From positions 1-64,000 of the forward strand of contig WTGF01000125.1 in NCBI GenBank assembly GCA_011525385.1: DNA of 64,000 bases, in the 5' to 3' direction. Positions 12,260-29,491 of the stretch are shown in pieces. The translations under genes and the position numbers were made by a program. Position 1 is the stretch's first letter, and every line of letters begins with the position of its first letter. Source of the DNA: Chloroflexota bacterium. Its GTDB lineage: Bacteria > Chloroflexota > Anaerolineae > Aggregatilineales > Phototrophicaceae. The notes under the pieces were generated by a model that ran no database searches, was not told where the DNA came from, and saw only the letters and a list, made by a program, of their open reading frames with translations.

Positions 12260-12619
12260 ATGACCGTTCTCGAATTTGGCCCTGTCGCCGCCCTGCTTGT
12301 CATTGCCTCCGCGCTGGCCTTAATCATCGCTAACATATCGCGCGTGATGGGTCCGCACCGGCCGACCTATCGCAAGTCCGTACCTTATGAAAGCGGGATG
12401 AAGCCGATTGGTCCGGCGCTGCGCCGTTTTCCGGTCAAGTTCTATCTGGTAGCGGTTTTGTTCATTATTTTCGACATAGAAGTCATTTTCTTTTTGCCTT
12501 GGGCAGTTTCCATGCGCGACCTCGGCGTTTATGGACTGGCAGTGATGGCGGTCTTCACAGTGATCCTGGTCGTAGGTTTCGTATATGAATGGAAGAAGGG
12601 TGGTTTGGAATGGGAGTAA
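12260..12619 (+). CDS. nuoA: NADH-quinone oxidoreductase subunit A
   Basis: [40 protein letters not shown]. Confidence 0.97.
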
Positions 12620-13092
12620 GCTCCAAGCTCGGTAACCTGGGTGTTGTCACAACCACCGTTGAACAAGCTGTCAATTGGGCGCGGACCGGGGCCATGTGGC
12701 CGTTGCTTTTTGGTTTGGCCTGCTGCGCAATTGAATATATGAGTTCGCAGGCTTCAAGCTACGACTTGTCTCGCTTTGGCATGGAGTTGAACCGCGCCAC
12801 GCCTCGTCAGGCGGATCTGTTAATCGTATCGGGACGCTTGACGCGGAAAATGGCGCCGGTCGTGCGCCAGCTCTACGACCAGATGGCGGAACCGAAATGG
12901 GTGATCTCCATGGGCGATTGCGCTTCCTGCGGCGGCGTTTACAATAACTATGCGATTGTGCAGGGCGTCGACGAGATCATACCCGTGGATGTTTACATTG
13001 CGGGCTGCCCGCCGCGCCCCGAGCAGTTGTTGCACGGCATCTTGACCTTGCACGAAAAGGTAAAGAGCGAGCGCGTCACGGATTGGGCCTAA
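12610..13092 (+). CDS. nuoB: NADH-quinone oxidoreductase subunit B
   Basis: [55 protein letters not shown] 12610 overlaps nuoA end. Confidence 0.97.
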
Positions 13093-13136
13093 CCGGTTCG
13101 CGGACTTATTGATCAGATTCTGAGGCGGCCTTGGGA

Positions 13137-13706
13137 ATGGAAATTCCGGCAGCAAGAGACCCGGTATCAGCAGCGCGAGACGCTTTTGATGATGCCGTCT
13201 TACATGTGAAGCAATTTCGCGGAGAGACCACGCTGGTCGTGGAACCCGCGCTCTTGCCCGAAGTGCTGGATTTCCTGCGCGTCAGTTCCGGGTTGGTCTA
13301 TAACATGCTCTCCGATGTAAGCGCTGTCGACTATTACCCGGACGACTATGGCGACGATTTTGACGGCGACGAAAGTGATTACCGCCCCGGGCGTTTCGCG
13401 GTCTCCTATCACATTCTTTCGATGCTCTACAACCGGCGGCTGCGCGTGAAAGTGTTCGCCGCGGAAGAAGATCCCCGCCTGCCGACGGCGACTGTAGTTT
13501 GGCCCGCCGCCAATTGGCTGGAACGCGAAATAGCCGACATGATGGGCATTACATTTGACGGTCATCCCGATCAGCGCCGGTTGCTGATGCCGGACGATTG
13601 GCACGGGCACCCGCATCGACGCGACTATCCCTTGGGCAAAGAGACGGTCGCCTTTTCCTTCAACGAAGCGGAAATCCGCAAGCACAAGCCCTTTGCGCAG
13701 AACTAG
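13137..13706 (+). CDS. nuoC: NADH-quinone oxidoreductase subunit C
   Basis: WLEREIADMMGITFDGHPDQRRLLMPDDWHGHPHRRDYPLG. Confidence 0.95.
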   Translation: MEIPAARDPVSAARDAFDDAVLHVKQFRGETTLVVEPALLPEVLDFLRVSSGLVYNMLSDVSAVDYYPDDYGDDFDGDESDYRPGRFAVSYHILSMLYNRRLRVKVFAAEEDPRLPTATVVWPAANWLEREIADMMGITFDGHPDQRRLLMPDDWHGHPHRRDYPLGKETVAFSFNEAEIRKHKPFAQN

Positions 13707-13720
13707 AGTCCGAGGTCACA

Positions 13721-14989
13721 ATGGCAGTTGCAGCGCAAGCGCAATCAATTGAAGAGCAGCGCAAATGGGAAGGCAGCCTCGATGAATTGAGAGGATTGGT
13801 TTCCGAACGGGCGATGACCGGCGAAACCATGCTGCTCAATATGGGACCGCATCATCCCAGCACGCATGGCGTATTGCGTCTGCTGCTCGAGTTGGACGGT
13901 GAAGAGATTGTCACCTGCTTGCCCGACATCGGATTCTTGCATACCGGCATTGAAAAGTCCCTCGAAGACAAGAGCTACGAAAAGGCGCTTCCGCTGACGG
14001 ACCGCATGGACTATCTGTCGCCGATGTCCAATAACATGGCTTATTCCTGCGCCGTCGAGAAACTGCTTGACCTGGATGTGCCGGAACGCGGTCAGATCAT
14101 CCGCGTGATTTGTCTCGAGTTGGCGCGCTGCGCCAGTCACCTTGTCTGGCTGGGGACACACGCCATTGATATGGGCGCGATGAGCGTCCTGCTATATGCC
14201 TTCCGCGAGCGCGAGCGCGTGCTCGGCATGTTCGAGATGCTTTCCGGCCAGCGAATGATGAGCAGCTATATTCGTCCCGGCGGCGTCTGGCGCGATGTCC
14301 CGGCCGAGTTTCTCCCCACGATCAAACAGTTCCTTAACGACTTTCCGGCCAAGGTTGACGACTACGAAGCGCTGCTGACGCAAAACCCGATCTGGAAAGA
14401 CCGGGCGCAAGGCGTGGGAGTGGTGGAACCGGATGTGGCGCTGGCGCACGGCATGACCGGCCCAGCCTTGCGCGGCAGCGGCGTCAATTGGGACTTGCGC
14501 AAGGCGCAGCCCTACAGCGGTTATGAGACCTACGACTTTAATGTGCCGCTTGGCGAACATGGGGACGTATACGATAGATACCTGATCCGTATTCAAGAAT
14601 TCCGTGAAAGCATGAAGATCCTGAATCAGGCGGTTGCCCGGCTGGAAACGGTGGGGGGACCGTACCGCTCGGAAAACCGCAAGTATGTACCGCCGCTGCG
14701 CAGCGAGTTAGGTCAGAGTATGGAAGCGGTGATCCACCACTTCAAGTTGTGGACCTACGGTTATGACGCCCCCGATGACGAAATCTATAGCGCGATTGAA
14801 AGCCCGCGCGGCGAAATCGGCTGTTACATTCACGGGACCGGCGCCAATAAACCGCGCCGGGTGCATTTTAAGACGCCGTCGTTTATTCACATCAGCGCGC
14901 TGCCGGTCATGTCGAGCGGCTATCTGTTGGCGGATATGGTTGCGATCATCGGCAGCGTCGATATCGTTCTTGGCGACTGCGATCGTTAG
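13721..14989 (+). CDS. nuoD: NADH-quinone oxidoreductase subunit D
   Basis: LNMGPHHPSTHGVLRLLLELDGE, GEIGCYIHGTGANKPRRVHFKTPSFIH, terminal DIVLGDCDR; start ATG 13721. Confidence 0.98.
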   Translation: MAVAAQAQSIEEQRKWEGSLDELRGLVSERAMTGETMLLNMGPHHPSTHGVLRLLLELDGEEIVTCLPDIGFLHTGIEKSLEDKSYEKALPLTDRMDYLSPMSNNMAYSCAVEKLLDLDVPERGQIIRVICLELARCASHLVWLGTHAIDMGAMSVLLYAFRERERVLGMFEMLSGQRMMSSYIRPGGVWRDVPAEFLPTIKQFLNDFPAKVDDYEALLTQNPIWKDRAQGVGVVEPDVALAHGMTGPALRGSGVNWDLRKAQPYSGYETYDFNVPLGEHGDVYDRYLIRIQEFRESMKILNQAVARLETVGGPYRSENRKYVPPLRSELGQSMEAVIHHFKLWTYGYDAPDDEIYSAIESPRGEIGCYIHGTGANKPRRVHFKTPSFIHISALPVMSSGYLLADMVAIIGSVDIVLGDCDR

Positions 14990-15068
14990 ATCGTATTGTG
15001 CGTACCGAGGTTAATACGCGAAATCATGCAACTGCCTCCCAGGGCGCGTCTTTGAAGGAAACTGATTG

Positions 15069-15569
15069 ATGGCAATCATCGGCAATCCGAAATACCAAGA
15101 TCGTATCCAGCATCATCTTGCCAAATACGAAACCAAACGTTCCGCGGTGATGCCGCTGCTTTATCTTGTACAAGAAGAATACGGCTGGGTTAATCAGCAG
15201 GGTATGGAAGAAGTTGCGCAAATTCTTGATCTGGATCCAACTCAGGTCAAGTCAATCGCCGGCTTCTATACCATGTATTCGGAAAAGCCGAAAGGCAAGT
15301 ACTGGTTGCAAGTGTGCACCGATTTGCCTTGCGCGCTGAGGGGCGCCGATGAGTTCCACGCTTGGTTGAAGGATGAGCTCGGCGTCGAAGAGGGCGGCAC
15401 GACCGACGATGGCATGTTTACTGTTGAACACGTTATGTGCCTGGCCGCCTGTGACAAGGCGCCCATGCTGCAATGCAATTTCCACTACGTAGAGAACTTG
15501 GGGCAAGAAAAGATGCGCGAGTTGTTGGCGCAATGGCGCGAGGAAGCGGCGCAACCTGCCAACGGCTAG
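15069..15569 (+). CDS. nuoE: NADH-quinone oxidoreductase subunit E
   Basis: VQEEYGWVNQQGMEEVAQIL, QVCTDLPCALRG.., EHVMCLAACDKAPMLQCN 2Fe-2S motif. Confidence 0.96.
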   Translation: MAIIGNPKYQDRIQHHLAKYETKRSAVMPLLYLVQEEYGWVNQQGMEEVAQILDLDPTQVKSIAGFYTMYSEKPKGKYWLQVCTDLPCALRGADEFHAWLKDELGVEEGGTTDDGMFTVEHVMCLAACDKAPMLQCNFHYVENLGQEKMRELLAQWREEAAQPANG

Positions 15570-15605
15570 GCGAGCCATCGAACGGTAAAGGAACTGAAAC
15601 GAAGC

Positions 15606-16874
15606 ATGCATATTCTTTTGCGCGGACGCGAAATTGATAACATCGACAAGCTGGAAGTCTATGAAAAGCACGGTGGCTTTGATGGACTGAAAAAATCGTT
15701 GGCTATGACGGCGCCCGAAGTGATTGACGAGATGAAAGCCTCCGGATTGCGCGGTCGCGGTGGCGCGGGCTTCCCTACGGGCGTGAAATGGAGCTTCATT
15801 CCCCAGCACGAGCCTCTCAAGTACGTCACGGTGAACGCTGACGAAAGCGAGACCGGCACCTTCAAAGACCGCGAAATCATGGAAAAGAATCCATATCAGT
15901 TGATCGAGGGCTCGTTGATCTGCGCTTACGCCATTCAAGCCAAGGCGGTTTACATCTATTTGCGTGGCGAGTTTTGGGATATCGGCACACAGCTTGACGA
16001 TTGTATCGAGCAACTGCGCCAAAAAGGATACGTTGGCGAGAATATCATGGGCTCGGGCTATGATTGCGAGGTCTATACGCATCTTGGCGCCGGCGCCTAC
16101 ATCTGCGGTGAAGAGAGCGCCCTGCTGAACAGTTTGGAGGGCTATTTGGGGCAACCGCGGGTGCGCCCCCCGTTTCCAGCGCAAAAAGGCGGCGGCCTCT
16201 ACAAGGAAGCCACGGTTGTCAACAATGTTGAAACGCTCGCCAACTGTCCATTCATCATGCGGGAAGGCGCGGAAGCTTTCAAAGCGATCGGCACCGACCA
16301 GAGTGCGGGCAACAAGGTTTATTGCGTCAGCGGTCACGTCAAGAAACCGGGCAACTATGAATTGCCCATGAGTACAACCTTCCGCGAATTGCTCTACGAT
16401 CATGGCGGGGGACCTTTATATGATGATCGCGCCTTCAAAGCGATGTTGCCGTCGGGTGGCTCTGGACCTATCGTTCCCTTAACCGACGAAGTCCTGGACA
16501 CCCCGATGAGCTATGAACATTGCGCGAATATCGGCACAATTATCGGCTCCGCGTCCATCATCGTCATGGACGAATCCGTCGATATGACCTGGGTCGCTTC
16601 AAAAGTAACTAAATTCTTTGAGCACGAAAGCTGCGGCAAATGTACGCCCTGTCGCGAAGGCACCTATTGGCTGGACAAGGTGATCGATCGCATTCTGGAT
16701 GGCCGTGGGACGCCTGATGATGTCAAACGCATCGCGGATGTGGCTGAAAATATGGCAGGCACGACGCTTTGCGCCTTGGGTGATTTCGCCGCAAACCCGA
16801 TCATACATACGATCAAACACTTCCCGGATGATTTCGCGCAGCACGTGGGGGCGGCGTCCGCAGGCGGCGATTAA
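15606..16874 (+). CDS. nuoF: NADH-quinone oxidoreductase subunit F
   Basis: LRGRGGAGFPTGVKWSF, GAGAYICGEESALLNSLEG, ESCGKCTPCREGT. Confidence 0.98.
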   Translation: MHILLRGREIDNIDKLEVYEKHGGFDGLKKSLAMTAPEVIDEMKASGLRGRGGAGFPTGVKWSFIPQHEPLKYVTVNADESETGTFKDREIMEKNPYQLIEGSLICAYAIQAKAVYIYLRGEFWDIGTQLDDCIEQLRQKGYVGENIMGSGYDCEVYTHLGAGAYICGEESALLNSLEGYLGQPRVRPPFPAQKGGGLYKEATVVNNVETLANCPFIMREGAEAFKAIGTDQSAGNKVYCVSGHVKKPGNYELPMSTTFRELLYDHGGGPLYDDRAFKAMLPSGGSGPIVPLTDEVLDTPMSYEHCANIGTIIGSASIIVMDESVDMTWVASKVTKFFEHESCGKCTPCREGTYWLDKVIDRILDGRGTPDDVKRIADVAENMAGTTLCALGDFAANPIIHTIKHFPDDFAQHVGAASAGGD

Positions 16875-16877
16875 AGC

Positions 16878-17195
16878 GTGACGGGCCGGGCCGGTTTATT
16901 ATGGCGAATCTTGAAGAAGCTGTTTCAAAGTCCGCTAGAGCGCGAACGAGATTTTTATGATCGCTTCCGCGAACTGAGCGACGAGATTGAGGCGCTGCCG
17001 GATTCAATCACCCATTATGTGCTGCGCGGAGAGTTGTTTATCGAACGCGGCGAATACGAACGCGCGAGAGCGGATTTCGAGGCAGCAGTGGATATCGCTG
17101 AAGCGGTGAACGCGGACGAGTCTTGGGGTCTATTGGAGCAAGTGATGCGCGACCGCGCCTTGCAGGGAATCGAGTTGGTGAAACGACGCCGGTAG
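16878..17195 (+). CDS. Small TPR-like protein encoded between nuoF and nuoG
   Basis: GTG start 4 bp after nuoF stop; YVLRGELFIERGEYERARADFEAAVDIAEAVNADESWGLLEQV resembles TPR repeats. Confidence 0.6.
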   Translation: MTGRAGLLWRILKKLFQSPLERERDFYDRFRELSDEIEALPDSITHYVLRGELFIERGEYERARADFEAAVDIAEAVNADESWGLLEQVMRDRALQGIELVKRRR

Positions 17196-17237
17196 CGAAG
17201 TCGGCGGCGCGGCGCCGTTGTTGAGGTGGAGGTCTGG

Positions 17238-19772
17238 ATGTCCGACACGGTAACAATCAACATTGATGGAATAGAGTACGAGGTAGCGGCCGGGTCAAAT
17301 TTGGTTGATGCGGCCAAATGGCATGCTGGCAACGACATTCCGGTATTTTGCTATCATCCCAAGATGGATCCGGTCGGCATGTGCCGCATGTGCCTGGTGG
17401 AGTTGGGCACGCCGGCGCGTGATCGCGCTAGCGGTGAGGTGATGCTCAACGAAGACGGCAGTCCGCAGATCCGCTATTTTCCCAAACTTCAAACCGCATG
17501 TACCACCGTCGTCAGCGACGGGATGCACATCAAGACCAACACGCAGGAAGTGATTGACGCTCGAAACGATGTCCTGGAGTTTCTGCTGACGAGTCATCCC
17601 CTGGATTGTCCCATTTGTGACAAAGGCGGCGAATGTCCGCTGCAGAACTTGACCATGCGCCATGGTCCGCAGTCGTCGCGGATGTATTTTGAAGATAAGC
17701 AACTGCTCGCAAAGCACTATCCGCTTGGGGACCTGATATTCCTCGATCAGGAACGCTGCATTCAATGCGCGCGCTGTATCAGGTTCCAGGATGAAATCGT
17801 CGGGGACGACGTCCTGGCCTTTCACGAGCGCGGACGTCGATTGCAGATAATCACCAATTCAGATCCAGGCTTCGATACATACTTCAGCGGCAATACCACG
17901 GACATCTGCCCGGTGGGCGCCTTGACCACCGGGGACTTTCGCTTCGGCGCGCGCCCCTGGGAGTTGAACGAAGTCGCGAGCATTTCTCCCTGGGATTGCG
18001 CTGGGGAGAATATCAGTCTCAGTATGCGGCTGGACCGGGACTTTGACGGTAAAGCTGTGATCAAACGAGTGATGCCGCGCCAAAACGAGTGGGTTAACGA
18101 GATCTGGATCAGTGACAAGACTCGCTTCGGCCATCACTTCACGCGCAGCGAAGATCGCTTGCAAAAGCCACAGACCAGGTCCGGCTCCCAATTGCGAGAA
18201 TCTGATTGGAAAACAGTTTTGCCACAATTGGCCGCAATCTTGAAGAACGCGGACGGCGACATCGCCGCCATAGCCGGCAGCGGTATGTCCAATGAAGATC
18301 TTTGGGAATTGCGTCAGTTGATAGAGGGTCTGGGCGGAACGCGCTTGGGCGCCTGGCCGCCGACGCATGGCGCTGCCGACCAAGTGGCGCAGGTTGGCGT
18401 CGGCGTTGGCAGTAATCTTGGTCAGCTCGGGCGGGGCGACGCCATATTGGTGATCGCCAGCGATTTGGAAGAAGAAGTACCGATTTGGCGTTTGCGCATC
18501 AAACAGGCACAGGATCGAGGCGCTTATCTGGTCGTCGCCAACGCGCGTCGTACGCGCCTGGAAGACTTCGCCGTTCAGGGCGCGCGCAATGACAAAGTGG
18601 TTGCCGGGGATGCGATCCGTTACGCCGCCGGCGATGCTGTCGCGGTCATGCGCGACTTGAAAAAGAATCATGCGGATGTCGCTCAACGATTGGAAGAGGC
18701 TGACAATCTCATTATTGTGACGGGCGCAGAGGGCTTGACGCTCGCAGGCAGCCGGGTCTTGGCGGGTGCGGCTGCCAACTTTTTGATCGAGACAAAGCAT
18801 GTTGGAAAGCCGAACAATGGTTTGCTCTCAGTATTGCCCGGCGCCAACGGCATGGGTCTTCACTACCTGGGCTACTCGCCCGACGTGACGCAAGATATCA
18901 TCGCCAATCCACCCAAGGTATTGATTGTGGCGCAGGCCGACTTGCTCGATGACGACCCATCGGCGCGAGGCTGGCTGGAAAGTATCGAAACTGTCATTGC
19001 TGCCAATCAGTTTGACGACGGTATCTCGGAATTTGCGGAGCATCTGCTGCCGATACAGAGCTTTGCGGAGCGCGATGGCAGCTTTGTTAATGGAGAACGG
19101 CGAGTACAGCGATTCTATACAGCGCAAGGTCCCATGGGCGAATCCCTGCCGGCTTGGAAACTCTTTGGCAGTATCCGACAGGCTACGGGACTAGCGCGCC
19201 TGAAGCCATCGGCCGCCACTGTCATGCTGGAATTGAGCCAGAGCGTCGATGACTTCGACGGCATGACTTACAAAGCGCTGGCAAAGGTCGAGAGGCAGTT
19301 TCCCGATGTTGGCGGCCGCGACCTGTATTATGGCGGCACCGCCTATACCAATGAGGGTGGTTTGGGCATTCAAATCGCCAGCGCGGCCGACCGCAACGAG
19401 AAGCCGAAAGTGGCGAAACTGACTTTGCCCGCGAACATCGAAGTTGGCGAGAACGAAGTCATCGTCATGCCGATTACTTGTTTGTACAATCGACAGCGAA
19501 GTTTCCGTCCGACGCTATTGCTCGAGCCGCGGATTCTCTCTCCGTTCGTGATCATCAATTCTGCTGACGCGGAGGCTATGGGGATCGCTCACGGCGACGC
19601 GGTCGAGGTTTCCGCGGGCGGAGCGCGCGTCCGCGTTCTCGCGCAAGTTAGCGACGAGATTTCCCGGGGCGCGGTAGCCTTGCCCCGCCACATGACTGAC
19701 GGGGCCATTCCGATGATGTTGACGAGTGGGACCATCAGTAGAGTGGCCGAAGCCGTGGCTTCAGGCGATTGA
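17238..19772 (+). CDS. nuoG: NADH-quinone oxidoreductase subunit G
   Basis: 2Fe-2S and 4Fe-4S motifs CYHPKMDPVGMCRMC, CPICDKGGECPLQN, ERCIQCARCIRFQDEI. Confidence 0.95.
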   Translation: MSDTVTINIDGIEYEVAAGSNLVDAAKWHAGNDIPVFCYHPKMDPVGMCRMCLVELGTPARDRASGEVMLNEDGSPQIRYFPKLQTACTTVVSDGMHIKTNTQEVIDARNDVLEFLLTSHPLDCPICDKGGECPLQNLTMRHGPQSSRMYFEDKQLLAKHYPLGDLIFLDQERCIQCARCIRFQDEIVGDDVLAFHERGRRLQIITNSDPGFDTYFSGNTTDICPVGALTTGDFRFGARPWELNEVASISPWDCAGENISLSMRLDRDFDGKAVIKRVMPRQNEWVNEIWISDKTRFGHHFTRSEDRLQKPQTRSGSQLRESDWKTVLPQLAAILKNADGDIAAIAGSGMSNEDLWELRQLIEGLGGTRLGAWPPTHGAADQVAQVGVGVGSNLGQLGRGDAILVIASDLEEEVPIWRLRIKQAQDRGAYLVVANARRTRLEDFAVQGARNDKVVAGDAIRYAAGDAVAVMRDLKKNHADVAQRLEEADNLIIVTGAEGLTLAGSRVLAGAAANFLIETKHVGKPNNGLLSVLPGANGMGLHYLGYSPDVTQDIIANPPKVLIVAQADLLDDDPSARGWLESIETVIAANQFDDGISEFAEHLLPIQSFAERDGSFVNGERRVQRFYTAQGPMGESLPAWKLFGSIRQATGLARLKPSAATVMLELSQSVDDFDGMTYKALAKVERQFPDVGGRDLYYGGTAYTNEGGLGIQIASAADRNEKPKVAKLTLPANIEVGENEVIVMPITCLYNRQRSFRPTLLLEPRILSPFVIINSADAEAMGIAHGDAVEVSAGGARVRVLAQVSDEISRGAVALPRHMTDGAIPMMLTSGTISRVAEAVASGD

Positions 19773-19790
19773 GGCTAGGGGATAGCAATT

Positions 19791-21365
19791 ATGAGCCGTA
19801 ATCTGAAAATAGCCATTGGCTTTGGCTTTGTAGCGCTGGTCGGGCTGATCATCGTGGTAGCGCTGATCGTGGCGAATCTGAACCCGATAATGACCTGGAT
19901 CGGCTTTGACAGCGCGGGCAACCTCGATGGCCGTCAAGGCGCGTTGGGTCTGCTGCTCAATCCTGAAGCGCGCGTACAAAACCTGATTCAATGCGAAGAC
20001 GATGCTGGGTGCTCGGCGCTTTGGCCGATTATATTCTCCGCTGGATTCGCCTTCGTGATCGTCACGGGTTTCGCGTACACGACCTTGCTGGAGCGGCGTC
20101 TTCTGGCGTTCTTGCAGCATCGCGTGGGTCCCAATCGCGTCGGTCCCCTGGGCTTCATGCAACCGGCCGCGGACGGCGTCAAACTGGTTTTCAAAGAGGA
20201 TCTGCTGCCGGCCGGCGCCGACAAGTGGGTCTTCCGCTTGGCGCCGATGATCAAGGTGATTCCTATCCTCATGATTGCCGCTGTCATCCCGATGGGACCG
20301 GACCTGGTCTTGCCCTGGTTCGCGCCATCGCTTGGCGACGTCTGGTTCCAGGTACCGCAAGGCTTGGTCGATTCCAACGTCGGCATCTTGTGGGTGATCG
20401 CCATCACGAGCATCGCGACCTATGGCGTGGTGCTTGCTGGATGGTCCAGCGACAACAAATACGCCATGTTGGGCGCGCTGCGCGCGTCGGCGCAGATGAT
20501 CAGCTACGAGTTGAGCTTTGCGCTGGCGCTGGCGGTGCCAGTGATGATCGTCGGCAGCATGGCGATCGGCGACATCATTGACGCGCAGCGAAATGTCTGG
20601 GAGTGGTTCGTATTCCAAAATCCCTTGGCGGCGGCAGTGCTGATTCTGGCGCTCCTTGCCGAGACGAACCGCGCTCCCTTTGACTTGACGGAAGCGGAGC
20701 AGGAACTGACGCAGGGCTACATGACCGAATACAGCGGCATGAAGTTCGCGCTGTTTATGATGGCCGAATATCTGGGCATGATCGCCGTCAGCCTGGTTGC
20801 CGTCGCGGTTTTCTTCGGGGGATACCACTTGTGGCCGATGGATGGATTGCCGATCCTGGCCCCAGTGATTTTTATCGGGAAAGTAGTGCTTTGTCTTTGC
20901 GGCATGATCTGGATCCGCGCCACCCTGCCGCGCATCCGCTACGATCGGCTCATGCAATTTGGTTGGAAAGTCATGATCCCGCTGGGCCTGCTGGCAGTGG
21001 CCTGGACATCCGTAGCGGTGGTCATCGGCGAGGCCTTGGGCGGCACGGCTTATCCTTTCATTTCCGGCGTAGTTTTTGTAGTCGTTCTTGCGATCGGCGC
21101 CTTGGTATTGCGGCGGCTGGGCCGGGATCAAGCGAGCGAAGAAGCGATCCCGCTGGAAGACGATCCCATGTATACCGGTGAACGTCGCGGATTGGGCTGG
21201 GCTTTGGCGCACCTGGTTGGCATGCTGATCGCGATTCCGATCGTACACATCCGCTTCCAGGTCAAGGCCCTGGAAGGGATGGCGAGTTTCGGACGCAGTC
21301 CCGAAGAAGATCGCCATCTGGAAAGTGGGGACGCCGCGATCACGACAACCGGCGGCGGCGACTAG
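19791..21365 (+). CDS. nuoH: NADH-quinone oxidoreductase subunit H (extended)
   Basis: LLERRLLAFLQHRVGPNRVGP, AETNRAPFDLTEAEQELTQGYMTEYSGMKFALFMMAEY; 524 aa with N- and C-terminal extensions. Confidence 0.96.
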   Translation: MSRNLKIAIGFGFVALVGLIIVVALIVANLNPIMTWIGFDSAGNLDGRQGALGLLLNPEARVQNLIQCEDDAGCSALWPIIFSAGFAFVIVTGFAYTTLLERRLLAFLQHRVGPNRVGPLGFMQPAADGVKLVFKEDLLPAGADKWVFRLAPMIKVIPILMIAAVIPMGPDLVLPWFAPSLGDVWFQVPQGLVDSNVGILWVIAITSIATYGVVLAGWSSDNKYAMLGALRASAQMISYELSFALALAVPVMIVGSMAIGDIIDAQRNVWEWFVFQNPLAAAVLILALLAETNRAPFDLTEAEQELTQGYMTEYSGMKFALFMMAEYLGMIAVSLVAVAVFFGGYHLWPMDGLPILAPVIFIGKVVLCLCGMIWIRATLPRIRYDRLMQFGWKVMIPLGLLAVAWTSVAVVIGEALGGTAYPFISGVVFVVVLAIGALVLRRLGRDQASEEAIPLEDDPMYTGERRGLGWALAHLVGMLIAIPIVHIRFQVKALEGMASFGRSPEEDRHLESGDAAITTTGGGD

Positions 21366-21435
21366 TGCTGCCGCGCGGACAGCGGCGCTGTAAATCAAGT
21401 TTTCTCAAAGACGAATGAGTCGAGGGTAGCGCAAG

Positions 21436-21930
21436 ATGAACGTGATCAAAGGTTTCAGGACGACCTTCAAGCATCTGATGGACGACGCTGTGACTGTACA
21501 GTATCCGGAGCAGGTGCAAAAGTTTCATGAGCGCTACAAGGGCAGGCATCACCTGCGGCGTTATGAAAATGGCTTGGAAAAATGCATCGGCTGTTCGCTT
21601 TGCGCCGCGGCATGCCCGGCGGACGCCATCTGGGTCGAAGCAGCTGAAAACACCGATGACGAGCGCTATAGCCCGGGCGAACGTTATGCCAAAACCTATG
21701 AGATCAACATGCTGCGCTGCATCTTCTGCGGTTATTGCGAGGACGCCTGCCCGACAGAAGCGATCGAGCTTGGGCACGAACATCAGATGTCCTTTACCGA
21801 CCGTCGCGACGCCATTTATACCAAGGACATGTTGATCGACCCGCCGGGTGAAGGCGCCGGTGATACGCCTCAGCAAGTCGAGCCCGGGGCTTACACGCGC
21901 TCTATCCCTGATATGGAAGATCCATCGTAG
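21436..21930 (+). CDS. nuoI: NADH-quinone oxidoreductase subunit I
   Basis: Two 4Fe-4S motifs CIGCSLCAAACPADAI and CIFCGYCEDACPTEAI. Confidence 0.97.
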   Translation: MNVIKGFRTTFKHLMDDAVTVQYPEQVQKFHERYKGRHHLRRYENGLEKCIGCSLCAAACPADAIWVEAAENTDDERYSPGERYAKTYEINMLRCIFCGYCEDACPTEAIELGHEHQMSFTDRRDAIYTKDMLIDPPGEGAGDTPQQVEPGAYTRSIPDMEDPS

Positions 21931-22039
21931 GGCAATTCATTCCTTGATGTGAGTTTTCCCGTCATTTTATTTCGCTTTGAACAAGATTGGCGATTGTGTT
22001 AAAATGCACAAATCGATTTTGAGGTGGGATTAGAAGCGT

Positions 22040-23464
22040 ATGGAGTGGTTGTTCCTGGTCGTAAGCTTTGTCGCTGTCGTCGCGGCCGGATTGATGCTGA
22101 CGCGGCAAAACGCGGTACACAGCGCTCTGTTTTTGATCGTCAATTTCGGCTGCGTCGCTTTTCTCTATCTGATGCTTGACGCGCCGTTCCTGGCGATGGT
22201 ACAAGTGACGGTTTATACCGGCGCGATCATGGTGCTTTTCCTGTTTGTGATCATGCTGCTTGGCGCCGAGGCGACCACCGATACCAGCGGCCGCATGCGT
22301 TGGCTGGGCTTCGCGAGTACCGCGGTCGCAATTCTGATCCTGCTCATTTTTGGTTTTCCCATCGCTTCGGACATGCTGAACGACGACGCGGTTGAACAAC
22401 CGGACGCGAAAGCACGTTTGCGAATCATCAATGCCGTATCGTCTGGGGATGGAAGCGAGTCCGGCGTCATTGAACCCGGCGCGGACTATTCAGCGTCGTC
22501 CATGGATCGAACCTTGCTCGAAGGTGCTGTGCAGCTAAACGTCGCTCTCGATTCGCTCGACGATTCGCTATCGGATATCGCCTTCGAGCCTGTCGTTCAT
22601 TTTGGGGCGCGCGACGCGACCCCCGGTTATACCGAGTTGCCCGCCGGCTCGTTTGCCCTGCGCGCGTCACTGAGCGCCATGGTGGGCGACAGGGAATTTA
22701 CCACTGTGCCAATTCTTAGCCAAGACCTGCAGTTGGCGGCGGATGACGCCCTCACCCTCGTGGCCTTTGAAGGCTCGGATAATCTGATCAGCATGGCTCT
22801 TCTAGCAGACGATCTCAGCGCGCCATCTGTAGGCGCTATGCGCTTTACGATCATCAATGCGGTCGCTGATGCCCAGGTGTCGCTGGTTGATATCGGCCAA
22901 TACACAGCGATTACTTCACTCTGTGAGGACAATTCATGTGACGCCTTGATACCCCATCGCGTTGTTGCCGCCGATTTGCCATCAGGTGAAAGCGTCAGCG
23001 TTGAATTGGATCAAGGCAAGTACAATCTGGCCTTTGTCGACGGGGGGCAAAATGTCCTGCGTATCTTGGTCGACTACGAAGCCGAACGTGGAAGGGTGGA
23101 GACCCGCCTGCTGGTCCGCGACCCGGGTATTCCCGGCGGGCAGGCCAGTTACCGCGCGGTGATGTTTGATGCCTTGGGCAAACCGGCATTCGGCAGCCCG
23201 GAGTCTATTGGTCAGGTATTGTTTATCGATTATGTGCTGCCGGTTCAGTTGGTCGGGATCCTGCTGCTGGTCGCATTGATCGGGGTAATTGTTCTGGCGC
23301 GTCCCGATGCGCTGCGGCAAGCGGAACGCCGCCGTGTCAATCAGCGCAGGCGCGTCAGCCGACCGCTTGTCAGCGTCTTGTCGCAGCAGACGGGCTCCGA
23401 TGTCTTGAGCGGCGACTATCTCGCGAAGCTGCCCGGCGGGTCCGATGACCCGACTGATGATTAG
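22040..23464 (+). CDS. nuoJ: NADH-quinone oxidoreductase subunit J with large DUF4397-like insertion
   Basis: N-term TM1-4 (MLTRQNAVHSALFLIVNFGCVAFLYLMLDAPFLAMVQVTVYTGAIMVLFLFVIMLLG) and TM5 (LFIDYVLPVQLVGILLLVALIGVIVLARPD) flank ~250 extra residues. Confidence 0.93.
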   Translation: MEWLFLVVSFVAVVAAGLMLTRQNAVHSALFLIVNFGCVAFLYLMLDAPFLAMVQVTVYTGAIMVLFLFVIMLLGAEATTDTSGRMRWLGFASTAVAILILLIFGFPIASDMLNDDAVEQPDAKARLRIINAVSSGDGSESGVIEPGADYSASSMDRTLLEGAVQLNVALDSLDDSLSDIAFEPVVHFGARDATPGYTELPAGSFALRASLSAMVGDREFTTVPILSQDLQLAADDALTLVAFEGSDNLISMALLADDLSAPSVGAMRFTIINAVADAQVSLVDIGQYTAITSLCEDNSCDALIPHRVVAADLPSGESVSVELDQGKYNLAFVDGGQNVLRILVDYEAERGRVETRLLVRDPGIPGGQASYRAVMFDALGKPAFGSPESIGQVLFIDYVLPVQLVGILLLVALIGVIVLARPDALRQAERRRVNQRRRVSRPLVSVLSQQTGSDVLSGDYLAKLPGGSDDPTDD

Positions 23465-23480
23465 CCGCTGAGGAGAACGG

Positions 23481-23792
23481 ATGATGCACTCAATCGGCAC
23501 TGAGCCTTATATCATGTTGAGCCTGGTCCTCTTCCTCATGGGGGCTATGGGCGTATTGATGCGGCGCAATGCCATTCTTGTGTTTATGTCGGTCGAGCTC
23601 ATGTTGAACTCTGCGAACCTGGCGCTGGTGGCTTTTGCGCAACAATGGCAGCAAATCAATGGCCATGTCTTCGTATTCTTTGTCATGACCGTCGCCGCGG
23701 CGGAAGTAGCCGTCGGCTTGGCGCTTATCGTGAACATTTTCCGCGAGCGCCAGAGCATTAATATTGACGATTTGCAGCAAATGCAAGGCTAG
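23481..23792 (+). CDS. nuoK: NADH-quinone oxidoreductase subunit K
   Basis: [43 protein letters not shown]. Confidence 0.97.
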
Positions 23793-23822
23793 CGGATCGC
23801 CGTCGGAAGAGGCTCATAAAGT

Positions 23823-26327
23823 ATGGAAAATCTACCGCTTCTGGTTCCCTTGGTCATTCTGGCGCCGTCGCTCGGCGCGATCATCAATTTCTTCGTCGGC
23901 GCCAAGCTGGGGGAGAAGTGGTCCGGCTATATCGGCTGCTTCGCGTCGATTTTCGCTTTCATCATTTCCTTATTGCTCTTGACCTACGTCACCGGTACAG
24001 GCGGCAGCGCCGCGGTCGTAAATCCTCCGCTTGTCGATGGCTGGCTGCGCATTGAGTCTATCGGACTAGAGATTCCCTGGCAGTTGCGCGTCGATTCACT
24101 CAGCGTCACGATGATGCTGGTGGTGACAGGGGTCGGTTCCCTGATTCATCTTTATGCCCGCGGCTATATGCACGGCGACAAGCTTTACCCGCGCTTCTTC
24201 GCCTATCTCAATATGTTCCTGGCCTTCATGCTGACCTTGGTCACGGCGAATAACTTCCTGATGCTCTTCGTCGGCTGGGAGGGCGTCGGTTTGTGCTCAT
24301 TCTTGCTCATCGGTTTCTGGTGGGACAAGAAAATGCCGGAAGGTTGGAAGAACAGCAATGCCGCGCGCAAAGCCTTCATCGTCAACCGTATCGGCGACTT
24401 CGGGCTTTTGATGGCGATGTTCCTGATCTTCTGGACCTTCGGCACGCTGGACTTTTACAAGGCCGGCGAGTTGCCGAATACGGAAGCCAAGTACCTGGTG
24501 AAGTGGCGTGAAGACAATGGCCTGGCCGATCACAATGGCGATGATGCAAAGAACGCCGGTGGGGACAAAGAGCAGGCTGACGGGCACGGCGGTTCCTACG
24601 TCTGCGTGCCGGCCGATCCAGCTGCCCATGATGACAGCCATGGCGCCGAATCGAAGTACGGCGGCGCCAATCCGCTCGCAAGCGACATTCGCGCGATCTA
24701 TTGCGATAATCATCATTTTGATACCGATTACCTGGGCGTCTTCGGGCAAACGGGGGAACGCTTCGGGACGGGCGAGAACGTGGACTTCGGCGGCTTTCAG
24801 ATGGCCTTCGACGATGTCATTTTCCTGATCGCCCTGTTCATGCTGCTGGGCGTGGCCGGCAAATCGGCACAGATTCCGCTCTTTGTCTGGCTGCCGGACG
24901 CCATGGCTGGACCGACGCCTGTCAGCGCGCTGATTCACGCGGCGACAATGGTCACGGCAGGCGTCTACATGATGGTCCGCGCCAACGTCATCTTGTGGGA
25001 ACTCAACCACGGTGGTTATGTCATCGGCTTGATTATCACCCTGGTTGGATCGGGGACCGCGTTGATGGCGGGCTATATCGCGCTGGGCCAGTGGGACATC
25101 AAACGTGTTCTGGCTTATTCCACGATTTCGCAACTTGGCTTTATGGTCGCCGCGGTCGGCATCGGCGCATACGTCGCCGCCATGTTCCATCTGGTGACGC
25201 ATGCCGTGTTCAAAGCGCTGCTCTTCCTTGGCAGCGGCTCGGTTATACATGGCGTCGAACACGGCCACCATCATGCGCGCGAGCACGGCTACGGCCATGA
25301 CCATGACGACGATCATGATGATCACCAGGACCAAGACTTTGATGCGCAGGATATGCGCAACATGGGCGGCTTGCGCAAACGCATGCCGATCACCTATATC
25401 ACGTATTTGATCGGCACCCTGGCGCTGGCGGGTATCTTCCCCTTCGCCGGATTCTGGTCCAAGGACGAGATCCTGGCTGACGCCTGGTACGAGGGCTTCC
25501 AACTCAACGCCTTGAGCGGATTCATCGCTTTTGGCATTCTCTTGGTCGCGGCGGCCTTCACGGCCTTTTACATGTGGCGCCAAATCGTGCTGGTCTTCTT
25601 TGATGAGGCGCGCAGCGAGGCGGCTCGGCAGGCGCCGGAGAGCAACGGCGCGATGTTGTTGCCGCTGGTTGTTTTGGCGATCTTCACTTGCATAATCGGT
25701 TTGATCAACGTACCCAAGGCGACGCCGATTTTCTCCAGCATCTATGAAAGCTACGAATTCAAATATTTCCTTGAACACAGCCTGCTCAGCGTGTCGCGAG
25801 GGCACTCGCTCGACTTCAATCTGTTGATAGCCGGCATTGCGCTGGCGCTTGGGATCGCCTCAATCGTGGTGGCGCACAATGTCTACAAAGGCAAGGGATT
25901 GGCGCCAGAAAATCGCGATCAGTTGGAAAGGCATGCTTCGTCTCGCGCCGCCTTCCGCCTGGCGAATGCGCGCCTGTATTGGGACGAGATATACGGCAAC
26001 GTGATCGAGCAGCCCTTTAACCGACTGGCGAGTTTCCTTGCCGACCGTATTGATTGGGATTTCCTGCACAATTATTTCCACGACAGCATTATCAAACGCG
26101 GTTTCGACAGCATCGCAAAACTGTTGGGTCAGCCCTTCGACCTGGGCATCATTGACGGCACGGTGAACGGTGTAGCCTGGCTGGTACAGCGCCTGGCCAA
26201 TTGGATGCGCGGCATGCAAACGGGCTACGTTCGCCTGTATGCGGTAGTGATCTTCATCGGTGTTGTGGCTGTTATTCTGTTGATGCTTTTGCCTTTTATA
26301 CAGACCATGCTCCAAAGTGGCTCTTAA
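23823..26327 (+). CDS. nuoL: NADH-quinone oxidoreductase subunit L (with insertions)
   Basis: FLMLFVGWEGVGLCSFLLIGFW, GKSAQIPLFVWLPDAMAGPTPVSALIHAATMVTAGVYMM; 834 aa. Confidence 0.97.
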   Translation: MENLPLLVPLVILAPSLGAIINFFVGAKLGEKWSGYIGCFASIFAFIISLLLLTYVTGTGGSAAVVNPPLVDGWLRIESIGLEIPWQLRVDSLSVTMMLVVTGVGSLIHLYARGYMHGDKLYPRFFAYLNMFLAFMLTLVTANNFLMLFVGWEGVGLCSFLLIGFWWDKKMPEGWKNSNAARKAFIVNRIGDFGLLMAMFLIFWTFGTLDFYKAGELPNTEAKYLVKWREDNGLADHNGDDAKNAGGDKEQADGHGGSYVCVPADPAAHDDSHGAESKYGGANPLASDIRAIYCDNHHFDTDYLGVFGQTGERFGTGENVDFGGFQMAFDDVIFLIALFMLLGVAGKSAQIPLFVWLPDAMAGPTPVSALIHAATMVTAGVYMMVRANVILWELNHGGYVIGLIITLVGSGTALMAGYIALGQWDIKRVLAYSTISQLGFMVAAVGIGAYVAAMFHLVTHAVFKALLFLGSGSVIHGVEHGHHHAREHGYGHDHDDDHDDHQDQDFDAQDMRNMGGLRKRMPITYITYLIGTLALAGIFPFAGFWSKDEILADAWYEGFQLNALSGFIAFGILLVAAAFTAFYMWRQIVLVFFDEARSEAARQAPESNGAMLLPLVVLAIFTCIIGLINVPKATPIFSSIYESYEFKYFLEHSLLSVSRGHSLDFNLLIAGIALALGIASIVVAHNVYKGKGLAPENRDQLERHASSRAAFRLANARLYWDEIYGNVIEQPFNRLASFLADRIDWDFLHNYFHDSIIKRGFDSIAKLLGQPFDLGIIDGTVNGVAWLVQRLANWMRGMQTGYVRLYAVVIFIGVVAVILLMLLPFIQTMLQSGS

Positions 26328-26342
26328 GGAGAACGTCGTCCT

Positions 26343-27944
26343 ATGGACTTGACTGGACTTTCGCTTACGACAATTACCTTGTTTATCCCGATGATCGGGC
26401 TGGCCATATTGCTGTTCATGAATGGCGAGACGCAGCGGGATAACATCAAGTGGGTAGCCTTCGGCACGAGCATTGTCGCCTTTGTCGCGTCGGTCTTGAT
26501 GTGGATTAATTTTGATCCGAGCGTGGCGGAGCTTCAGATGGTGCAGCGCAATACCTGGGCCGAGGTATCCTTGGGCGAGTCGGTGATCAATATCAGCTAC
26601 TTTGTTGGCGTCGACGGCATCAGTCTGCTGCTTGTGCTACTGACAACTTTCATCATGCCGATCGCTATCTTGGGCTCTTTTGGCAGCCAGATCTTTGAAG
26701 AACGAGGACGAGAAAAGCTCTATTACATCTTTATGATGCTCCTGGAATGGTCAATGATCGGTGTCTTCGTGATACATGACTTGATCATTTTCTATGTGTT
26801 TTGGGAGGTCACCCTGGTGCCGATGTACTTCCTGATCGGCATTTGGGGCGCGGAAGAGCGGATATATGCCGCGGTTAAGTTTTTCCTCTACACGATGGCC
26901 GGCTCTATCTTGATGTTGATCGCTATCCTCTACGTTGGCAACAAATCCGGCACCTTCAGCACCTACAGCGCCGCGGGCGATGTCGGCGTCATCGAGATGG
27001 TGCACACTTACGAAGGCGAGGGCAGCTATTGGGACCCGGCCGCCGATGAGGGGGAAGACGCCGGATTCTTGCTCAGTTCCGTAGAAAGCTTCCTGTTTTT
27101 GGGATTCTTGGTGGCTTTCGCCATCAAAGTGCCGATCTTTCCCTTCCACAGTTGGCTTCCCGACGCACATGTGCAGGCGCCGACCGCCGGCTCGGTCATA
27201 CTGGCGGGTGTCTTGTTGAAAATGGGCACCTACGGCATCGTGCGTTTTAATCTGACGATGTTTCCCGAAGCCGCGGTGGCTTGGGCGCCGACGATTGCTT
27301 TTCTCGGCGTGGTGGGGATCATTTACGGCGCTTGGGTCAGCTATGCGCAGGACAACGTAAAGAAACTGGTCGCCTATTCCTCGGTCAGTCACCTGGGCTT
27401 CGTGGTGCTTGGCATTTTCGCGTTGAACTCGCAAGGTCTGCAAGGCGCGACCTTGCAAATGGTCAATCACGGTATCAGCACCGGCGGTCTCTTCTTGATC
27501 GTGGGTATGCTCTATGAGCGCTGGCACACCAAGGAAATGGCGGATTACGGCGGTATCTGGAAAATGATGCCCGCCTTCGGCGCGATTAGCTTGGTGATTT
27601 CTTTGAGCAGTATGGGCTTGCCCGGCTTAAACGGCTTCATCGGTGAATTCACGATTCTGCTAGGTTCGCTGGGCAGCGAATATCTGGGCTTCGCCTTCAC
27701 GCTCTTCGCGACCCTGGGCGTGATCATGGCGGCGGTTTACCTTTTGAAGATGTTCCAGCACGTATTCATGGGCGAGCACGACAATCCGCTCTCCGACGAG
27801 ACGCGCTACAAATTGCAGTGGAACGAGATCGCGGCTTTCATCCCGATCCTGATCATGATCTTCTGGATCGGCATCCAACCGATTGTCTTTTTCAATATGC
27901 TGGATATTTCGGTGGATAGCATCGTGGCGCTGTTCCTGCCCTAG
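26343..27944 (+). CDS. nuoM: NADH-quinone oxidoreductase subunit M
   Basis: [61 protein letters not shown]. Confidence 0.97.
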   Translation: [533 protein letters not shown]

Positions 27945-27952
27945 GAGACACC

Positions 27953-29491
27953 ATGTTTGAGACGCCCACTATTGCGGATTTTCTCGCGCAATCCAACCTG
28001 GCCTCGACATTGCCTGGCACATTGCTGGTGCTATGGACGCTCATCCTGGTCTTGGTCGATCTCTTTTTGCCGGAGGAACGTCAACGCTGGACGCCTATCC
28101 TGGCTTGCGTCGGGCTGGGCATCAGCTTTGTGGCCAATATGTTCGTCTATTCCCCGGCTGAAAGCGAACAGATCGCGCTCTACGGCATGTTCGTTGCCGA
28201 TGCCTTCACCGGATTTTTGAATGTCGTGATCCTGGTCGCCACCTTGATCGCCATATTGATGAGTTGGGACTATCTCAACCGCGCCGATATTCACCGGGGC
28301 GAATACTATGTCCTGGCGCTTTTGTCTTCAGCTGGCGCGATGTTTATGGTCGGCGCCAATGACCTGATTATCATATTTGTCGCCTTGGAATTGCTCAGTA
28401 TTCCGCTGTATATCTTGGCGGCATTCCGCTCGATCAAGAACGACGGCAGCGACCTGGCGCTCAAATCCGAAGAAAGCGGCATGAAATACTTCATTCTCGG
28501 CGCGTTTTCCAGCGCATTTCTGGTCTTCGGATCGGCTCTGGTTTATGGCGCGACAGGTACCACCAACATCCCGGAGATCTTTTCCTTGGCTGGCGCTATC
28601 GCGGGGGGCGTTTCGTCGGCTGCCTTCTACTTGATTATCGGCGCAGCTCTGCTCTTTGTCGGCTTGGGATTTAAGGTAGCGGTGGTGCCCTTCCACATGT
28701 GGACGCCCGATGTCTACGAAGGCGCGCCCACGCCGGTTACCGCCTTTATGAGCGTGACTGCCAAGATTGGCGGCTTCGCCGCGATGCTGCGGCTTCTGGT
28801 CTCCGGTCTGGCCGTGCTGGTAATCGCGGATGGAGAGCCGGTTGCCTGGCAAGCGACGGTGTCCCTTGTGGCTGTTTTGACCTTGGTTCTCGGCAATTTT
28901 GTCGCGATTTCGCAAAGAAACCTGAAGCGCATGCTGGCCTATTCGTCGATCGCGCACGCCGGTTACATTCTTGTGGCTGTGGCTGCCACAGGAACGTCCG
29001 GTGTGGCTGACGCGGCGACTCAGAGCGCCTTGGTCTACATGCTGGCCTATATGTTCACCAATCTGGGCGCCTTCGCCGTCGTCATGGCGATTGAAGGAGA
29101 AGACGGCAGCGGCGGTAATATCGAGGACATTACCGGCCTGGCGCGATCACGCCCCTTGATGGCAATGGCTATGACGATCTTCATGCTAAGCTTGACCGGC
29201 ATCCCGCTGACAGCCGGCTTCCTAGGCAAATTCATGGTATTCGCCTCTGCCGTGCAAGCGGGTCTGTTTGGTTTGGCTATCATCGGCGTGCTCACAAGCG
29301 TCGTCAGCGCATTTTATTACATGCGCGTGGTAGTCAATATGTACCTGCGTGACAGCTCAGGTGATTTGCAGCCGGCATTGGAAACATCGGCCGTAAGATG
29401 GGCGATCAACATTGCCTTGGCAGGCACGATGGTCTTCGGCGTCTTTTACCCGCTTGCCACGAACCTTGTGAGTTCGGTGAGCATCACTTGA
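27953..29491 (+). CDS. nuoN: NADH-quinone oxidoreductase subunit N
   Basis: KVAVVPFHMWTPDVYEGAPTPVTAFMSVTAKIGGFAAMLR, NLKRMLAYSSIAHAGYILV. Confidence 0.97.
   Translation: MFETPTIADFLAQSNLASTLPGTLLVLWTLILVLVDLFLPEERQRWTPILACVGLGISFVANMFVYSPAESEQIALYGMFVADAFTGFLNVVILVATLIAILMSWDYLNRADIHRGEYYVLALLSSAGAMFMVGANDLIIIFVALELLSIPLYILAAFRSIKNDGSDLALKSEESGMKYFILGAFSSAFLVFGSALVYGATGTTNIPEIFSLAGAIAGGVSSAAFYLIIGAALLFVGLGFKVAVVPFHMWTPDVYEGAPTPVTAFMSVTAKIGGFAAMLRLLVSGLAVLVIADGEPVAWQATVSLVAVLTLVLGNFVAISQRNLKRMLAYSSIAHAGYILVAVAATGTSGVADAATQSALVYMLAYMFTNLGAFAVVMAIEGEDGSGGNIEDITGLARSRPLMAMAMTIFMLSLTGIPLTAGFLGKFMVFASAVQAGLFGLAIIGVLTSVVSAFYYMRVVVNMYLRDSSGDLQPALETSAVRWAINIALAGTMVFGVFYPLATNLVSSVSIT

Follow-up and report, generated by a model that had tools for sequence, protein, structure and literature searches.

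Few membrane proteins are as conserved as the core subunits of complex I, and ND6/NuoJ has a central role in coupling. In the 64,000-nucleotide stretch of Chloroflexota DNA analyzed here (the window), the nuoJ gene of a complete nuo operon encodes 474 residues, and the question is what the additional residues are, whether they belong to the gene, and what they may do for the enzyme. The proposal that we favor, and regard as fairly probable as a whole, is that they form a pair of DUF4397 domains, gained once and lying outside the membrane on the canonical 14-subunit complex I found in most families of the order Phototrophicales, where they would serve as a docking or stabilizing platform.

A two-domain insert within an otherwise intact NuoJ

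A preliminary description of this locus had proposed a 474-aa NuoJ with a long insertion between TM4 and TM5, and this was confirmed by the open frame, by Pfam, and by alignment with plain Phototrophicales NuoJ. In that alignment, the extra block comprises ~260 residues between TM4 and TM5 of an otherwise intact five-helix NuoJ (nt ~22376-23191), and the interval first proposed for it, 22386-23214, was right to ~25 nt. TM4 ends at about residue 112, and a conserved FGSPxxIG motif stands before TM5 from residue 384. We hold this anatomy, a NuoJ with a two-domain insert in the TM4-TM5 loop, to be near certain, and its parts are the following.

22040..23464, + strand: nuoJ with tandem DUF4397 insert, 474 aa, a single open frame
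22040..22375, + strand: NuoJ TM1-TM4, residues 1-112, conserved core including the TM3 region (PF00499, model helices, dN/dS 0.028)
22409..22825, + strand: insert domain 1, residues ~124-262, DUF4397-like beta-sandwich (PF14344, model strands, dN/dS 0.20)
22835..23176, + strand: insert domain 2, residues ~266-379, DUF4397-like beta-sandwich (model strands, fold matches, dN/dS 0.12)
23198..23299, + strand: NuoJ TM5, residues ~387-420 (alignment with plain NuoJ, model helix, dN/dS 0.021)
23300..23461, + strand: NuoJ C-terminal tail, basic beside TM5 (RRRVNQRRRVSRP), expected to be cytoplasmic (sequence, charge count)

The protein matched Oxidored_q3 (PF00499, NuoJ/ND6) in Pfam at E=2.9e-37 and 128.1 bits (cut-off 33.2), with the best stretch at residues 17-111, and its place as NuoJ was confirmed by the five helices and by the position of the gene between nuoI and nuoK in the nuo operon. 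It missed the NCBIfam NuoJ equivalog cut-off (best 122.4 bits vs 192); the insert probably breaks up the match. As the Pfam cut-off was reached, the protein is best kept as a NuoJ, though not among the curated NCBIfam equivalogs.

DUF4397 (PF14344) was matched in the same protein at 35.1 bits (cut-off 30.6) over residues 194-279, and at E<0.01 in 37 of the 37 homologues tested. The objection that the insert might lack any DUF4397 similarity therefore failed, as the profile match lies above its cut-off. Pfam reports one DUF4397 stretch in the window NuoJ, and the second unit comes from the alignment and the structural model. Two units of the form R(L/F)xIINAV, as originally described, were found at residues 126 and 268, and the start-strand arginine of each (R128, R268) is invariant or nearly so in the 37 homologues. 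In the window's genus, domain 2 also contains a Cys pair (SLCEDNSCD).

Distribution and history of the long NuoJ

The genome to which the window belongs is a draft assembly in 131 contigs, which by itself would be compatible with an artefact, whether a false fusion of two genes or a chimeric contig. This explanation is refuted and deserves practically no weight, since the identical in-frame architecture, with the insert in the same loop, recurs in 132 genomes (with stop codons in one of the matches listed), the insert is present in a cultured strain whose closed genome is a single contig, and the dN/dS of the insert is well below 1. On the same evidence, the frameshift or chimera that the preliminary description had allowed for did not materialize. 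That closed genome (G100, 5,631,885 bases), which we take as Phototrophicus methaneseepsis ZRK33 (PMC8941918), carries the long NuoJ in its nuo operon (L235:7982-9439). With this identification, the window's family is Phototrophicaceae, in the order Phototrophicales.

A search of 61 related genomes found the long NuoJ as one open frame in 34 of 34 members of the genus. Across Phototrophicales it occurs in 132 of 151 genomes, at full length in 128 and cut by contig ends in 4, while the remaining 19 have plain NuoJ (families f2, f5, and f6, and genome G096) or no canonical nuoJ in the assembly. This presence across the order, along with the DUF4397 match in every homologue tested, places the insert beyond chance. 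Beyond Phototrophicales itself, a survey of 199 class genomes (10 belonging to the order) and a 400-genome sample of the phylum yielded no long NuoJ, and class matches from other orders covered the helical part of NuoJ alone. Among the best 80 matches from a scan of ~85,000 species genomes, this long architecture appeared only in Anaerolineae/Chloroflexi records; the Frankia NuoJ proteins among those 80 have 253-315 aa and are without it.

Trees were built from nuo-operon core proteins with NuoJ left out. They separated f2 (plain NuoJ, plain NuoH) first, and then f5 plus f6 from every family with long NuoJ. Both of these clades were fully supported, and the topology supports a single gain of the long NuoJ. 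Genome G096 has an intact plain NuoJ of 204 residues (L225) and an intact NuoH but is nested in the long-NuoJ family f3, which supports one clean secondary loss of the insert. The window's near relatives, which are Chloroflexota MAGs, appear to derive from sponge samples, and other relatives with the insert are assigned by record title or publication to groundwater, hydrothermal, and cold-seep sites. A tie between the insert and sponge symbiosis was ruled out because these non-sponge relatives carry the insert as well.

The best candidates for a donor of the insert are exported multi-DUF4397 proteins (only ~26% pairwise identity), two of which adjoin an S-adenosylhomocysteinase gene. At L062:7574-10102 (genome G000, contig C122), a gene beside that for S-adenosylhomocysteinase encodes an exported protein that combines three DUF4397 units with SH3-like repeats, and this neighborhood is also found in family f6 (L220). 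The L062 protein is a possible source of the NuoJ insert. As a separate observation, a NuoJ-like match in another order of the class (G186:C59:93025-93330) lies within a 736-residue open frame and could be a fusion.

Selection on the insert

Taken as medians over 136 genus pairs, dN/dS was 0.028 in TM1-4 and 0.021 in TM5, and reached 0.20 in domain 1 and 0.12 in domain 2. Both insert domains are under purifying selection and change far faster than the core, and values of 0.20 and 0.12 against 0.02-0.03 in the helices are the pattern of a constrained yet exposed surface. Identity between families is 24-28% in the insert and 71% in TM1-3, and this fast divergence, together with the clean loss in G096, suggests that the insert is dispensable in some lineages.

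These results bear on the main rival to a docking or stabilizing role, namely that the insert is a passive passenger in a loop that tolerates foldable inserts, kept mainly to avoid misfolding (neutral elaboration) and with no dedicated partner. Constraint that is relaxed relative to the core, rapid divergence, and one clean loss are what such a passenger would show. However, retention in 132 of 151 genomes over a deep clade, with clear purifying selection on both domains, argues against it, and we consider it unlikely, although serious enough to be weighed again below.

Predicted fold and side of the membrane

An AlphaFold2 model built with 37 homologues (mean pLDDT 75.5, modest confidence in the membrane part) contains helices at residues 2-21, 25-45, 50-76, 88-111, and 387-434 and strands in two blocks, 124-257 and 266-379. 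The pLDDT exceeds 80 for most of residues 161-290 and 311-360, with many above 90, as are most of those in 311-360. The preliminary description had expected a beta-sandwich appendage, and the model predicts two beta-sandwiches.

In Foldseek searches of the PDB, the helical part of the model matched complex I NuoJ chains, and the closest folds to the insert were the extracellular domains of mammalian PepT2 and PepT1. The PepT2 domain structures 5a9h and 5a9i matched at E 5e-9 to 4e-8, the lower value being that of 5a9h, with TM-scores by target length of 0.61-0.69. No sequence relationship with PepT was found, given no match in the PDB profile search and 8-16% identity in the structural alignments, and by sequence the insert had very weak matches at most to solved structures in that profile search (AlgF, E=0.08). 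In BFVD, which holds predicted structures, the two best Foldseek matches are named DUF4397 proteins, viral and tandem (E 1.8e-11 and 1.5e-9). Pfam, AlphaFold2, and Foldseek all support reading the insert as tandem DUF4397.

In known structures, the five helices of NuoJ run from an outside N-terminus to an inside C-terminus. The insert is strongly acidic (42 D/E vs 17 K/R), the C-terminal tail is basic, and elsewhere in these genomes DUF4397 occurs in exported proteins, in which inspection showed signal peptides together with SH3b or FAS1 domains. Given this topology, these charges, and the exported DUF4397 relatives, the insert very probably faces the cell exterior, and the same considerations support the extracytoplasmic TM4-TM5 loop assumed from the outset. 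In the E. coli structure, Ser145/Glu142 on the TM5 side are linked with the periplasmic surface (PMC8357420).

An exterior DUF4397 pair might instead mean that complex I acts as an anchor displaying adhesin-like or matrix-binding domains toward the wall, a sheath, or the sponge matrix. DUF4397 does occur in exported SH3b- or FAS1-containing proteins of the same order, and Bacteroides cell-adhesion and fimbrial proteins, along with HGSNAT, are among the lower-scoring PDB matches in Foldseek. Yet a respiratory enzyme embedded in the membrane is poorly placed to mediate adhesion across a wall, no conserved motif for binding was found, and the spread of the insert over 132 genomes, relatives from groundwater, hydrothermal, and cold-seep sites included, speaks against a host tie, so that we find surface binding quite improbable. 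The early comparison with adhesin or stalk domains holds for the type of domain; the resemblance gives no evidence of adhesion.

Other elaborated subunits of the same enzyme

The nuo genes around nuoJ, and the two other subunits with additions, are arranged as follows.

12260..29491, + strand: complete nuoA-nuoN operon
Starts of nuoA 12260, nuoB 12589, nuoC 13131, nuoD 13598, nuoE 15066, nuoF 15606, nuoG 17226
Starts, continued: nuoI 21436, nuoK 23481, nuoM 26343, nuoN 27953
19791..21365, + strand: nuoH, 524 aa, with an extra N-terminal helix, a Cys pair, and an extra C-terminal helix
23823..26327, + strand: nuoL, 834 aa, with an expanded TM6-TM7 loop

Between nuoF and nuoG lies a small TPR-like ORF (105 aa, 16878-17195) whose Pfam matches are weak.

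The NuoH Cys pair, C68/C74 (nt 19992-20012), is located immediately before TM1 on the extracytoplasmic side and is likely to form an outside disulfide. It is common to all sampled long-NuoJ clades and to f5/f6 and is absent from f2 and the other orders examined. A strict coupling of NuoH lengthening to the NuoJ insert was rejected, as the Cys pair and the C-terminal helix are also present in f5/f6, where NuoJ is plain.

In the three f5/f6 genomes examined, the extra length of NuoH is mostly due to ~100 residues in its outside TM6-TM7 loop that match Baseplate_J (PF04865), at 21.4, 25.2, and 30.7 bits against a cut-off of 21.1.

L051:7248-8720: NuoH with Baseplate_J-like domain, f5/f6
L054:7818-9278: NuoH with Baseplate_J-like domain, f5/f6
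L057:7608-9056: NuoH with Baseplate_J-like domain, f5/f6

The NuoH insert is predicted by modeling to be a beta domain, and the tree supports its gain in a single event. It shares 44% identity over 85 residues with a Baseplate_J-like membrane protein from a related f2 genome, and the domain of that protein could plausibly have been its source. The f2 Baseplate_J proteins of 511-534 aa, to which this source belongs, were also considered as NuoH, and this was rejected because they are a membrane protein distinct from NuoH.

In the window, the NuoL TM6-TM7 loop has 136 residues between FGTL and GKSAQ. Its length ranges from 72 to 181 residues across the order, compared with 30-40 in two scorable outgroup sequences, and the expanded loop is rich in His, Glu, and Asp, with an additional Cys pair in the window's genus. 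The same genome encodes a second, partial complex I-like cluster, NuoHJKLMMN (L063:1937-11310), with a plain NuoJ of 168-170 aa, and no peripheral-arm genes were seen near it. The plain NuoJ of this cluster and the changes in NuoH and NuoL suggest that the elaboration concerns the outer face of the canonical enzyme, and the NuoJ insert together with the sister-clade NuoH insert indicates that this face was elaborated at least twice.

For the passive-passenger explanation, these additions point in both directions. Unrelated domains in comparable outside loops of sister clades would fit loops that simply tolerate inserts, but the elaboration of NuoJ, NuoH, and NuoL on the same face is better explained by a common requirement on the outside than by chance.

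Discussion

We return to the docking or stabilizing platform. The insert would derive from an exported multi-DUF4397 protein, and the module may stand out from the membrane arm on its outer side, close to NuoH, NuoA, and NuoK, leaving the proton-pumping core untouched. It could then act as a cis-fused counterpart of supernumerary subunits, with a component of the envelope or another respiratory complex as its binding partner, and the Baseplate_J domain on the sister-clade NuoH would fill a similar outside role. For the docking or stabilizing role taken alone, we see the balance as close, falling a little short of even.

Comparison with solved NuoJ/ND6 subunits (E. coli 7nyh_J, M. smegmatis 8e9g_J, and T. 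thermophilus 4he8_J) shows the same five helices, TM3 region, and nuoI-nuoK position. The solved chains matched have ~145-252 aa, the mycobacterial one being the longest (252 aa), and at that length leave no room for such a domain pair between TM4 and TM5. Exported DUF4397 proteins share with the insert the tandem beta-sandwich units, the R-x-x-x-x-A start, and the predicted fold, but those seen consist of a signal peptide and repeats, and none lies within a multi-pass respiratory subunit.

PepT1 and PepT2 are membrane transporters that likewise carry two Ig-like sandwiches in tandem within an outside loop (PMC4597091), but the host protein is an MFS peptide transporter unrelated to NuoJ, and the likeness is one of design, not of membership. 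When PepT2 lacks its external domain, the transport KM is unchanged, a result that suits a module leaving the pump alone as well as a passive passenger, and the PepT2 domain also binds trypsin (PMC4597091), which makes it an apt precedent for the platform. E. coli complex I has extensions that overlap supernumerary subunits and are thought to be stabilizing (PMC8357420), and they resemble the NuoJ insert as additions to a conserved core. These extensions belong to the cytoplasmic peripheral arm, whereas the insert is fused in cis to a core membrane subunit and is very probably outside. The nearest parallel within the same enzyme is the f5/f6 NuoH insert (PF04865), which is likewise outside and independent but involves another domain, subunit, and loop (TM6-TM7). 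The preliminary description knew of no complex I with such a fusion, and we also found none in the open-access literature on DUF4397, NuoJ inserts, bacterial supernumerary domains, and Phototrophicaceae NADH dehydrogenase.

More broadly, and more tentatively, Phototrophicales complex I may have repeatedly gained outer-face domains in NuoJ, NuoH, and NuoL loops, with the pump doubling as a docking hub for the envelope or for other electron-transfer complexes. If this is true, cis-fused external accessory domains evolve in parallel in bacteria. The lineage with the NuoJ insert, and its sister with another domain on the adjacent subunit NuoH, illustrate how accessory functions can become part of the core by fusion in cis and not only be added as separate supernumerary subunits. 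The cultured strain ZRK33, with its closed genome, carries the insert and makes its structure, topology, and function directly testable. In this strain, a cytochrome b6/f is reported, along with the absence of an alternative complex III (PMC8941918).
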